Source of the DNA: Balneola sp.
GTDB lineage: Bacteria > Bacteroidota > Rhodothermia > Balneolales > Balneolaceae
Length of the DNA: 64,000 nucleotides
Direction: 5' to 3'
Assembly (NCBI GenBank): GCA_002694685.1
Contig: NZMW01000004.1
Location: 368,632 to 432,631 of the forward strand
The position numbers and the translations under genes are program-made. Of this stretch, positions 622-4,783 are shown piece by piece. The notes below the pieces were generated by a model that ran no database searches, was not told the origin of the DNA, and saw only the letters and a program-made list of their open reading frames with translations. Each line of letters begins with the position of its first letter. Position 1 is the first letter of the stretch.

Positions 622-1425
622 TTATTTGCGTTTTTCGCGAAGCCAAAGCACGCCGAGGAATATACCGAGAATAATCAGTGTAGCCAAGCCACCAAGCTTC
701 ATAATATTAATTGCTACCGGCGTATAACTACCGGAATCGGGATCATATTGATAACAGAACATAACGAGTTTATCGACGGTGTTACCAATTTTTCCATCCG
801 CAGATTCATACAAGGCACTGCGTACATTAAATTCATCATAGGAAATACCGTACAGATAACGGGTTATTTTCCCTTTTGGACTCAGGAGTGTAATTGCAGC
901 ACTGTGCGCATATTCTCCGGTCTCTTCAATTTCTTTATACTCAAAACCAACCGCATCAACGACCTTATCAATTTGGTCTTTGTTGCCAGTCAAAAAGTGC
1001 CAGCCGGCTTTGGCCGTTGAATCCATCTGACCCAAGTAATTTTCCTTTGATTTTGCCGCTAATGCCGCATCCTCCTTAGGGTCAATACTGATGGAGATGA
1101 CAATAAATTCTTTGCCGGGCTTCCAAATCAGTTCATCAACAACATTAATCACTCCATCAAGAACAAGGCCACACAACATTGGGCAATCGTAATAGAGTGG
1201 ATTTAATAAAACGGGTTTTCCTTCTTCCAATAAGTCACCAAGAACAACGCTGTCGCCATTTGATTTGGCAAACTTAGCATCCAAAGGGATGAAATCTCCC
1301 AGATGTTCATTGATGCCTAAATCTTGCAGCGCATCCGGTGTTTCACGATTTACCTGCGCAAATGCAGATAGTGAAGTCAGAAACACTGCAAGCAAACTAA
1401 TTGCTAACAGTGTAAAGCGTCTCAT
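622..1425 (-). CDS. SCO1/SenC-family copper chaperone with C-terminal membrane anchor
   Basis: A 267-residue Sco protein, expected to deliver copper to the CuA site of the adjacent coxB product. It has a signal peptide (about 1-23, ending AFAQ), a thioredoxin-like fold with the copper-binding CPMLC motif (Cys81, Cys85) and the distal His174 in EYAHSAA. A C-terminal membrane helix (about 245-262) is followed by the basic end LREKRK. Sco proteins are more often anchored at the N-terminus; here a cleaved signal plus a C-terminal helix would leave the domain in the periplasm. It lies between the small membrane protein and coxB with short gaps, so co-transcription is likely. Confidence 0.93.
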   Translation of the reverse strand: MRRFTLLAISLLAVFLTSLSAFAQVNRETPDALQDLGINEHLGDFIPLDAKFAKSNGDSVVLGDLLEEGKPVLLNPLYYDCPMLCGLVLDGVINVVDELIWKPGKEFIVISISIDPKEDAALAAKSKENYLGQMDSTAKAGWHFLTGNKDQIDKVVDAVGFEYKEIEETGEYAHSAAITLLSPKGKITRYLYGISYDEFNVRSALYESADGKIGNTVDKLVMFCYQYDPDSGSYTPVAINIMKLGGLATLIILGIFLGVLWLREKRK

Positions 1426-1433
1426 GATGATTA

Positions 1434-1967
1434 TTAGTCTTGTGCTATTTTGCTAATAGCACTGTCAATAGGAATTCTGTAAATACCTTCCTCTAAATCA
1501 ACAACACCAAAGCTATTCAATTCTTGATCTTGCTGAGCTTTTAATTCTTTAATCTCTGAATACGTGCTATTAGTCGAAACTTGTTTTTGAGTTTCAAACA
1601 GGCTGTATTGTGAGAAGTAAACCAAACCTATAACGAAAATAACTACAAGAGAAGTCCCAAGTGTGGACCAAAATATGAGTTTTTTATAGTTGAGAGTATC
1701 ACTCATCACCCCATGTCCAACTGCATAGGCAAATTCTTCATCCTCAGTAGTAATATCTACATGTTCAACTAAGTCGTGATCGGAATCACCGGCAGCTTCT
1801 GTAGTAAAGATTTGAGAAGCTTCGTCTTGAAGTTGTGCTGCCCAAGAAATGATTTCTTCTTCAGAAACATCATGTTTCTTGGCAATTTTCTCAATCACAG
1901 AGCGACCCTGAGACACTGCTTCGAGTGCTACTTTCGCTTTAAATTCTGAACTATACTTTTCTGACAT
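1434..1967 (-). CDS. Small membrane protein with transposase-like HTH N-terminus in the ACIII/oxidase operon
   Basis: A 177-residue protein of unknown function. Residues 4-50 (SSEFKAKVALEAV, then an HxVSEEEIISW turn) look like the N-terminal helix-turn-helix of IS3-type transposase OrfA. An acidic linker, one membrane helix (about 97-119) and a C-terminal tail with the block FGVVDLEEGIYRIPIDSA (153-170) follow. From memory, a similar tail (YGW-VD-GV-RIPID-AM) occurs in small proteins encoded in other bacterial ACIII/oxidase clusters, so the tail may be the conserved working part. It sits 12 bp after actF and 8 bp before sco, a position where extra Act subunits (actG/actH) occur in some species. 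It could be an assembly factor or accessory subunit; DNA binding is unproven. Confidence 0.8.
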   Translation of the reverse strand: MSEKYSSEFKAKVALEAVSQGRSVIEKIAKKHDVSEEEIISWAAQLQDEASQIFTTEAAGDSDHDLVEHVDITTEDEEFAYAVGHGVMSDTLNYKKLIFWSTLGTSLVVIFVIGLVYFSQYSLFETQKQVSTNSTYSEIKELKAQQDQELNSFGVVDLEEGIYRIPIDSAISKIAQD

Positions 1968-1979
1968 CGGTAAATTCGA

Positions 1980-3176
1980 TTATTGGTGATATGATTTAGA
2001 AAGACAGTCGTCAAGTTTTGGATCGTTCTTCGGAACCATATCGTGTTTTTTGAAGGTGTTAAAGAACAAGCCAAAGAAGATGCCTCCCAAACCTAAGAAA
2101 GCGGTGATATCCATCCAGCTAAAGTGGATTCCATGCTTAAACAATACAGGCATTGCAATCCAGTATATCTCAGCAAAGTGAATTACGAGAACCAGGATAG
2201 ATATAATGGTAAGAATTGTGCGGTTTTTCTTCGCTTCGCGATTCAGAAGTACCAAAAATGGAATTGCAAAACGGAAGATCAATAAACTGTAGGCAATATA
2301 TTTCCAGCTGCCTTCTAATCGATGGAAGTACCAAAGTGTTTCTTCCGGAAGGTTAGCGTAGTAAATCAATAGGAATTGGCTAAAGGCGATGTAAGCGTAG
2401 AAAACAGTAAAAGCGAAGAACCAGGCACCTAAATCATAGATGTGTACCTGTCGTATCGTATTCTTTAAAATGCCTTTGCGTTGCATGTAAAAGACCAACA
2501 AGATCATAACAGGCCAGAAAGTCTGGAAACTGATTGCAAAGAAATACACTCCAAACATTGTAGAGAACCAGTGGGGGTCAAGAGACATCAACCAGTCAAA
2601 ACTGGCAAATGCTACTGAAAGAGCAAACAAAGGAATACCAGGTGCACTTACTTTTCTAAGAAGTGCAGTTAAACCCCAGTCATTAGTTTTATCCATTTCG
2701 ACAGAGACTTTGTGGAGTTTGTATCCAAGGTATCCCCAAATGGCAAAGTAGATAAACTGTCGTGCGATAAAGAAAGGGGTATTTAAATAGGCTGACTTCC
2801 CTTTCAGGATTTTATCAGCCATTACGGCATCTTCGTGGCTCCAGTGGTACAGGTTATGAATTCCAAGTATTACCGGGATCGCAAAGATTGCCCATATCCA
2901 GATATTTGAAATAAATGTTTCTGAAATACGGCGAAACAAGACACCCCAAGAGGACTTCGTAATATGGTGTAACATTACCATCAGAAGTGCGGCAAGTGCT
3001 ATTCCACTAAAGAACACAAAACTTACTAAGTACGAGAAGAAAAACTGATCGGCATCTAAGAAATAACCAATGATACTGGCTATCAATCCAACAGCCCCAA
3101 CACCAAAAAGTGCACGAGGAACTTTGCTGTCGGCCGGAAATTGTAAAGAATCTGTTATTGTAGGCTTATGACTCAT
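1980..3176 (-). CDS. actF: Alternative complex III subunit ActF (integral membrane quinol-site subunit)
   Basis: A 398-residue polytopic protein with about ten hydrophobic helices, matching the length and pattern of ActF, a PsrC/NrfD-related membrane subunit of the menaquinol:cytochrome c oxidoreductase ACIII. Recognisable family blocks include FASFDWLMSLDPHWFSTMFG and the buried polar residues of the helices following it. It follows actE by 25 bp and completes the actABCDEF order. ActC and ActF are related; this one is assigned F by its position and by the DPHWFSTMFG block. The ATG at 3174-3176 is the only good start, as MSHKPTITDSLQFP leads straight into the first helix. Confidence 0.93.
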   Translation of the reverse strand: MSHKPTITDSLQFPADSKVPRALFGVGAVGLIASIIGYFLDADQFFFSYLVSFVFFSGIALAALLMVMLHHITKSSWGVLFRRISETFISNIWIWAIFAIPVILGIHNLYHWSHEDAVMADKILKGKSAYLNTPFFIARQFIYFAIWGYLGYKLHKVSVEMDKTNDWGLTALLRKVSAPGIPLFALSVAFASFDWLMSLDPHWFSTMFGVYFFAISFQTFWPVMILLVFYMQRKGILKNTIRQVHIYDLGAWFFAFTVFYAYIAFSQFLLIYYANLPEETLWYFHRLEGSWKYIAYSLLIFRFAIPFLVLLNREAKKNRTILTIISILVLVIHFAEIYWIAMPVLFKHGIHFSWMDITAFLGLGGIFFGLFFNTFKKHDMVPKNDPKLDDCLSKSYHQ

Positions 3177-3201: not shown

Positions 3202-4242
3202 TTAGTTGTCAGATAAATTTTTGATATAAAGTACGATCGACTCGATTTCGTGATCAGCAAGATAGCTGTAAGAAGCCATCACGCCTTGCTGATAGTCAAC
3301 AGGTTTTGCCGCTTCCGGTTCAACAATTGATTGCCGGATGTAGTCTTCATCTTTAGTTACAGTAATCGTTTCACCGTCAGCCGTAACTACTTGACCTTCA
3401 CTTCCGAATAGACCGGCCCAAGTTGGACCAATTCCACCAGCAGCACCGTCTTCATTGTGGCAAGCTGCACAACCATTGGCTGTAATCACTTCTTTTCCAA
3501 GATCGACTGTTGGTTCGGGAGCATCACTAGGTGCCCTTGCAGCAGCAACTGAATCTTGGCGTTCTCTTTCAGCAGTAAACTCTGCTTGCAGTGCTGCTAT
3601 ATCAACAGGATAATCCTGCATTTCTTGTTCGTTAACATTCTGGCTTTCCTGCAGTGCACGGATATATGCTACGATAGCCCAGCGATCTTCAACGGGAACT
3701 TGTGTTGAGTAGGATGTCATAGTTCGCACTCCATTATAAATAGCTGAATAGAGTTCACCGTCTGGAGCATCAACTAAACGCTGGTCGTGATAGGAAGGGG
3801 CAGGAACATATCCATAACCACCGGTCATAATAATACCATTACCAGCTCCTGTTTGTCCGTGACACGGTGTACAGTAAATTTCGTAACGCTCTTTTCCACG
3901 ATAGAGGAATGATTTGGTGATATCTACGGGGATGTAATCAATATAGTCGCCGTTTTCATCTACACCTTCATAATAAGCTACATCTAACTTTGCAAGCCCT
4001 CGAGCAACAGTACCTTCTACCGGTTGACGCATAGAGCGACCGTCAGCAAAGAAGTTATTTTCTTCTTGAGCTTCTTTTCTAGGTTGCTGATCCATGTTCA
4101 TATTTGGATGGATAGGGGGCTTTTCAGAAAGCTGCCCCTGGCAAGCTGAAAGAGAAATTCCGAGCGCAAAAAGGCCCGCAATTTTAAACATTCCTTTAAA
4201 ATTCATTCCTGGAAATGATATGTGGGTATTCTTTTTATTCAT
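3202..4242 (-). CDS. actE: ACIII cytochrome c subunit ActE, carrying a second fused haem c domain
   Basis: A lipoprotein cytochrome of ACIII. I choose the ATG at 4240-4242 (346 aa) rather than the longer 358-aa reading: GAGGAAG lies just upstream and the ATG overlaps the actD stop, implying translational coupling. A lipobox (LSAC, Cys34) anchors it in the membrane. The first haem site is CTPCH (124-128), the usual ActE site. After a charged linker there is a second complete class I cytochrome c domain with CAACH (258-262) and GGIGPTWAGLFGS, which resembles the cytochrome c domain fused to CoxB in caa3 oxidases. The classical ActE is monohaem, so this domain could carry electrons directly to the oxidase. 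Confidence 0.92.
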   Translation of the reverse strand: MNKKNTHISFPGMNFKGMFKIAGLFALGISLSACQGQLSEKPPIHPNMNMDQQPRKEAQEENNFFADGRSMRQPVEGTVARGLAKLDVAYYEGVDENGDYIDYIPVDITKSFLYRGKERYEIYCTPCHGQTGAGNGIIMTGGYGYVPAPSYHDQRLVDAPDGELYSAIYNGVRTMTSYSTQVPVEDRWAIVAYIRALQESQNVNEQEMQDYPVDIAALQAEFTAERERQDSVAAARAPSDAPEPTVDLGKEVITANGCAACHNEDGAAGGIGPTWAGLFGSEGQVVTADGETITVTKDEDYIRQSIVEPEAAKPVDYQQGVMASYSYLADHEIESIVLYIKNLSDN

Positions 4243-4783
4243 AAACTTCCTCGATGTGAGTAGCTCCGGCTTCTTCAAAAAGCTTTTTCACTTTGTCAGA
4301 CTCAAACATATCGTCATCAGCTTCGATACAGGCAAAAAACCCGTCATCGGTAGCTTTCTTAAAGCGTTCTACGTTAAAAAGAGGATTGTTAAATCTTGGC
4401 AGTCCATTTAGAAAAAACATTCCAAATACAGTACCAAATGCTGAAAGCAACACTGTCAATTCAAAGATAATCGGTACCCAGGCAGGAGCATTAAAGAATG
4501 GTTTCCCGCTAATATTCAAAGGATAATCAATTACTGACATGTAATACATCATAGCAATAGCGCCTGCAAAACCAAGAAAAGCATGACCAAGTACAATCCA
4601 GCCAAGTTTTGATTTCTTTAGATTCATAGCTTTATCCATTCCATGAATCGGGAAGGGGCTAAAGGTGTCAAATTTACTAAAGCCTGATTTTGAAATGGTT
4701 TTAGCCACATCAGTTAGTTCTTTAGGATTTCTGAACTCGGCGATGATGCCGTACATGTCCTTATTTTCTGTTTGTGTACTCAT
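4235..4783 (-). CDS. actD: ACIII membrane subunit ActD (DUF3341)
   Basis: A 182-residue DUF3341 protein, the ActD subunit of alternative complex III. The start MYGIIAEFRNPKELTDVAKTI (residues 10-30) followed by FDTFSPFPIHGMD is the family hallmark. Two membrane helices (about 61-82 and 102-125) are separated by a short loop, and a soluble C-terminal tail follows. No cofactor motif is seen, as expected; the family has a structural role beside ActC/ActF. Its stop codon overlaps the chosen actE start, and it begins 5 bp after actC ends. Confidence 0.95.
   Translation of the reverse strand: MSTQTENKDMYGIIAEFRNPKELTDVAKTISKSGFSKFDTFSPFPIHGMDKAMNLKKSKLGWIVLGHAFLGFAGAIAMMYYMSVIDYPLNISGKPFFNAPAWVPIIFELTVLLSAFGTVFGMFFLNGLPRFNNPLFNVERFKKATDDGFFACIEADDDMFESDKVKKLFEEAGATHIEEVYE

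Follow-up and report, generated by a model that had tools for sequence, protein, structure and literature searches.

The window, as we call the whole stretch of 64,000 nucleotides from Balneola sp. analysed here, holds within a respiratory operon a gene whose product joins a transposase-type helix-turn-helix (HTH) to a membrane segment. This raises the questions of what the membrane-bound half of the protein is, how a transposase domain came to be attached to it, and what such a domain might do there.

An N-terminally extended ActG

The gene (1434..1967, minus strand) is an open reading frame with an ATG start that encodes 177 residues, separated by 12 nt from the stop of actF and by 8 nt from the start of sco. 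Immediately upstream lies actF (1980..3176, minus strand; assigned by position and conserved synteny), and immediately downstream sco, encoding a SCO1/SenC protein (622..1425, minus strand). A previous sequence-only reading had placed the gene in frame and in order between these two, with which the frame and the short gaps agree; it had also named a disrupted frame in close relatives as a sign of a functionless insertion, but the frame runs through uninterrupted in the relatives. The window also encodes an ActE-like protein (3202-4278, minus strand) with two cytochrome c domains, matched at residues 127-206 and 259-356; one heme is described for R. marinus ActE (PMC5928083).

Judged by profile similarity and gene order, the membrane-plus-tail half of the protein can be identified as ActG, a small subunit of alternative complex III (ACIII) that has a single helix. 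PDB searches with single proteins yielded no useful match. A profile of the C-terminal half (A1) had Chloroflexus ActG (8k9e chain G) as its best PDB match at E 0.095, and a second profile, built from a wider range of relatives in the order, class and phylum (A4), matched the same chain at E 1.5e-5, the next PDB match standing at 0.076. The sequence-only reading had recognized the membrane helix and the tail and had proposed a comparison of the tail with ACIII proteins; helix and tail are indeed present, and what that reading missed is that they belong to a known ACIII subunit. The motif common to ActG reads LNSYGYT..GKVHIPIDRAMDLIV against LNSFGVVDLEEGIYRIPIDSAISKIA; its general form, L-N-S-[FY]-G ... 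[YF]-R-I-P-[IV]-D-x-A, is present in our protein, and the G, D, P and D of this region are invariant across the order. The order actF-actG-sco is kept in nearly all the loci that we read in the order, class and phylum. In Chloroflexus the published order is actABCDEFG, and in a second cluster actG stands beside SCO1 and cytochrome oxidase genes (PMC3150298). The profile match, the synteny and the published place of actG together identify the protein as an ActG that carries an additional domain at its N-terminus, which makes the HTH an add-on to a subunit of the complex.

The ActG of R. marinus, seventh of the ACIII subunits, has one predicted transmembrane helix and was confirmed by mass fingerprinting; it has no density in the map, and the subunit is not universal, being missing from some act clusters (PMC5928083). 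The ActG proteins of Chloroflexus aurantiacus (8k9e_G) and R. marinus resemble ours in the C-terminal LNSYG...IPIDRAM motif and in the place of the gene after actF and/or before sco, and that of R. marinus also in its single predicted helix, but neither has an HTH match and the Chloroflexus protein is only 112 residues long. ActG would be physically part of ACIII here too.

We searched 58 genomes, that of the window and those of its relatives, and 57 gave a match. In 56 of these the match takes in the C-terminal half, wholly or partly, and it is this half that is conserved throughout the order; in the remaining one (G030) the sole match is an OrfA-like frame. Three ActG matches occur in a single assembly (G093, contigs C37, C52 and C130), as duplicates or through mixed strains. 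Six genomes of the genera g21 and g4 (G029, G115, G030, G108, G110 and G113), mostly small and several of them incomplete, have neither a detectable ActD nor ActG, which suggests that ACIII was lost in them.

The features of the protein, all on the minus strand, follow one another as an IS3-OrfA-type HTH domain (residues 3-58; 1794..1961), an acidic and variable linker (59-77; 1737..1793), a conserved ActG juxtamembrane segment, EFAYAVGHGVMSDTLN (78-93; 1689..1736), a single transmembrane helix predicted to run N-in/C-out (approximately residues 97-118; 1614..1679), and the conserved C-terminal ActG motif LNSFGVVDLEEGIYRIPIDSAI... (150-177; 1437..1520). AlphaFold2 predicts a trihelical N-terminal domain (helices 7-20, 22-32 and 36-58) with a moderate pLDDT of about 75-80, disorder at 57-69 (pLDDT below 50), one long helix at 94-150 and a small C-terminal hairpin-helix; the pTM of 0.26 implies no arrangement of these domains. 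There is one hydrophobic segment, as in ActG, and no second candidate above 1.3. Among 105 proteins the N-terminal flank of the helix is the richer in K/R in 63 and the poorer in 15, and in class-level proteins the flank charge is ambiguous. The K/R-rich N-terminal flank and the lack of a second hydrophobic segment that might act as a signal make it most likely that the HTH is cytoplasmic, with sidedness read from the positive-inside rule only.

Origin and history of the HTH domain

The sequence-only reading had seen an IS3 OrfA-like pattern in the N-terminal residues, SSEFKAKVALEAV followed by HDVSEEEIISW, and had suggested a search against transposase HTH families. The pattern is there, and Pfam assigns residues 3-49 to HTH_Tnp_1 (E 2.3e-7); the score of 31.4 bits, above the cut-off of 24.1, is more than chance would give. 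NCBIfam adds weaker IS66-TnpA and IS3 transposase matches to the same residues. HTH_Tnp_1 is found at E 0.01 or better in 39 of the 71 sequences of set A2, some of which are HTH-less, and conversely an HTH profile built from ActG matches IS3-type OrfA proteins of the relatives. Foldseek with the predicted model of the HTH-ActG protein gave no match at E 0.001; a second look with VIA-align had TnpE (2rn7) as its best chain (Z 6.6, rmsd 3.2, 54 residues), a likeness that is supporting only, because such a Z lies within the range of common arrangements.

With IS3-family OrfA proteins (HTH_Tnp_1, TnpE 2rn7 and the OrfA of relatives) the domain shares the scaffold residues K10, A17, A29, V34, I39 and W42 and, in the window's genus, a trailing QL....A..IF. 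It differs from them in being fused to a membrane subunit, without OrfB or terminal repeats, and in lacking the heptad-leucine (leucine-zipper dimerization) segment that follows the HTH in OrfA: by inspection, residues 49-90 are acidic and contain one leucine (L66). The absence of terminal inverted repeats and of OrfB, remarked upon earlier, is borne out, since no inverted repeat of at least 12 bp occurs within window positions 1200-2200 and the neighbours are actF and sco. No further HTH_Tnp_1 match over the cut-off was found elsewhere in the genome. An IS remnant is thus ruled out by the lack of repeats and of OrfB, by the conserved synteny and by the purifying selection described below. A viral origin was likewise rejected, there being no relative in viral contigs and only weak transposase matches in PHROGs. 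In three relatives PAS sensor proteins carry an N-terminal OrfA-like HTH resembling that of ActG (L047:2052-4031 in G019, a PAS histidine kinase by Pfam; L048:474-2456, minus strand, in G011; L197:483-1712 in G022), so that the module is used elsewhere in the family too.

To place the fusion in time we used a quick maximum-likelihood tree of ActF and Sco with SH-aLRT support only, comprising 85 rows, of which 70 belong to the window's family and 15 to sister families of the order. We call the window's family Balneolaceae because its named relatives are Gracilimonas and Balneolaceae. The HTH is present in 58 of the 70 rows of this family, on all of its main branches, and in none of the 15 sister-family rows; conservation, which had been proposed as a check, therefore extends through most of the family and stops at its border. 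The fusion is ancient within Balneolaceae (Gracilimonas and relatives), and its presence on all main branches rules out a recent insertion. HTH-less homologues, earlier considered a potential mark of such an insertion, are indeed found, but as outgroups or as products of later deletions that left stubs.

We prefer a history with one gain on the family stem and several losses, with the reservation that gain and loss counts depend on a quick tree of two genes from one operon. Parsimony needs five changes, and in its shortest history the HTH is regained in g10. In our judgement independent losses are preferable to this regain, because the HTH-less neighbours have stubs that resemble the start of the HTH: MSADHIELSKTRI and MSDHIEDSKTKI stand beside MSSTHTAEFKAKV. 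Other pairs of the HTH-less and HTH forms are MASEEPTYSSESKAKEDT beside MANEEQNYTSEFKTKV and MSDKQNSEHKP beside MSEKYSSEFKA. Such short N-terminal stubs are what in-frame internal deletions would leave. Fission of the HTH into a separate gene was also considered and rejected: among the HTH-less genomes, G012, G013 and G021 have nothing that exceeds the HTH_Tnp_1 cut-off, and what exceeds it in G002, G009 and G011 are short frames of the OrfA type.

Purifying selection and the loss of DNA-contact residues

The HTH is under purifying selection. Within the window's genus its mean pN is 0.10, against 0.12 in the ActG core and 0.23 in the linker; its pN/pS ratio, taken over 14 pairs, is 0.25 (p 1e-42), with 0.33 in the linker and 0.17 in the core. 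Nonsynonymous change in the HTH lies below that in the linker (p 2e-6) and shows no clear difference from that in the core (p 0.07). Constraint is weaker, or evolution faster, in g17, g10, g12 and one g19 pair. These faster lineages and the several losses are what might be expected of a nearly neutral passenger, kept since it folds harmlessly; a pN/pS of 0.25, a constraint tighter than that on the linker and about like that on the core, and the retention of the HTH across most of a diverse family make this improbable. The earlier suggestion of a domesticated transposase HTH, as opposed to an IS remnant, accordingly holds: the domain is old, in frame, syntenic and selected.

Alignment of HTH-ActG with nine OrfA proteins shows that the HTH scaffold has been kept while the basic DNA-contact residues typical of OrfA sequences are gone. 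Where OrfA has the basic arm KRKRRNFT and the recognition helix HPNQITTWKKQ, the window's ActG reads SEKYSS and SEEEIISWAAQ; both the basic N-terminal arm and the basic recognition helix, which are marks of OrfA, are absent from HTH-ActG. The net charge of the ActG HTH averages -2.0 (n=58, range -8 to +3), that of OrfA runs from 0 to +9 (n=9), and the four most similar OrfA have +5 to +9. Scaffold residues are conserved and many surface positions are variable.

These observations bear on the proposal that ActG-HTH is a membrane-tethered DNA binder of the CadC/ToxR kind, which would report the state of ACIII to gene expression or tie the nucleoid to the complex. The fold does belong to a DNA-binding class and is predicted on the cytoplasmic side, but the replacement of KRKRR by SEKYSS and of HPNQITTWKK by SEEEIISWAA, with the attendant shift in mean charge, the missing leucine-heptad dimerization segment and the lack of a stand-alone replacement in the HTH-less genomes checked render it quite improbable. 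Pfam also finds no winged Trans_reg_C domain of the CadC/ToxR type in ActG. DNA sensing by this HTH is therefore unlikely, and the charge pattern speaks against the sensor of ACIII state that the sequence-only reading had entertained; that the domain reaches out from the membrane to DNA or to the transcription machinery, and so couples the state of electron transport to expression or to nucleoid position, we regard as very improbable. The other idea raised there, that the HTH has become a module for binding protein, agrees with the loss of the basic residues.

A proposed docking module on ACIII and its parallels

We propose that on the Balneolaceae stem, as homology and the tree indicate, ActG acquired at its N-terminus the HTH half of an OrfA of the IS3 family, and that selection has since kept the HTH scaffold without its basic DNA-contact residues. 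Given the predicted topology, the HTH would lie in the cytoplasm on a flexible acidic linker, tethered to ACIII, and since it has lost its DNA-contact residues and is still under selection it is probably a protein-docking piece, acting in a RodZ-like manner on the cytoplasmic face of the complex. Its putative target might be a cytoplasmic partner of ACIII or of an ACIII-oxidase supercomplex, or a second ActG. The function would be accessory to ActG, since several lineages deleted the HTH and yet kept ActG. We assign a probability of roughly 0.58 to the reading that the captured OrfA HTH now serves as a cytoplasmic protein-docking module tethered to ACIII. Several points count against it: the repeated losses show that the HTH is dispensable, its evolution is faster in some genera (g17, g10, g12 and one g19 pair), the AlphaFold2 confidence for it is moderate and Foldseek by itself had no match at E 0.001, and an acidic HTH is no proof that DNA binding is absent.

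Conceivably the HTH is instead a structural addition, one that stabilises ActG or ACIII or helps in its assembly by packing on the cytoplasmic side of ActC, ActF or ActD, and that has no partner outside the complex. The conservation of scaffold residues amid many varying surface positions would suit this, as would an accessory domain on a non-universal subunit; however, a long, acidic and variable linker is ill-suited to fixing a domain on the complex, and relatives without the HTH still have ActG in the same syntenic place, so that we consider this possible but rather doubtful.

A separate addition at the same end of ActG was observed in other families of the class (f9, f11, f12, f14 and f15), where ActG has 246-290 residues and a different N-terminal domain (L122:1491-2228, L123:1943-2683, L124:1818-2576, L125:1467-2270, L128:1397-2266 and L134:1433-2260). 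Pfam fn3/Ig matches to this domain fall below the cut-off (E about 0.04); AlphaFold2 predicts eight strands with pLDDT of about 90, and a Foldseek search of the PDB has 145 matches at E 0.001 or better, with FN3 domains making up most of those at the top. Like HTH-ActG these proteins carry a further folded domain N-terminally, but it is an FN3-type beta-sandwich of separate origin. Taken with the HTH of Balneolaceae, this points to the ActG N-terminus as a recurrent fusion site.

ActG is among the least understood subunits of ACIII, and a selected, folded and probably cytoplasmic domain upon it suggests that its N-terminus faces something worth docking to; HTH-ActG offers a concrete handle for finding the putative partner. 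The protein is also a clear example of domestication, with a transposase HTH taken into a complex of energy metabolism and its DNA-contact residues lost, in which later independent deletions can be placed on a tree. Our search of part of the literature found no published description of this fusion.

The docking reading has precedents among HTH proteins. The cytoplasmic HTH of RodZ binds MreB and itself, not DNA (PMC6946637), and QseM is a negatively charged HTH variant in which DNA binding was lost (PMC10359603). RodZ is bitopic in the inner membrane and has its HTH at the cytoplasmic N-terminus, ahead of a juxtamembrane linker, and HTH-ActG would resemble it in this: the order HTH, linker, single transmembrane helix and periplasmic tail is reproduced by the prediction, with sidedness again from the positive-inside rule only. 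It differs in that the RodZ HTH is of the Xre type, the ActG HTH having only Tnp-type matches and none of the Xre/RodZ type in Pfam and NCBIfam, and in that the periplasmic part of RodZ is unrelated and its function lies in cell shape.
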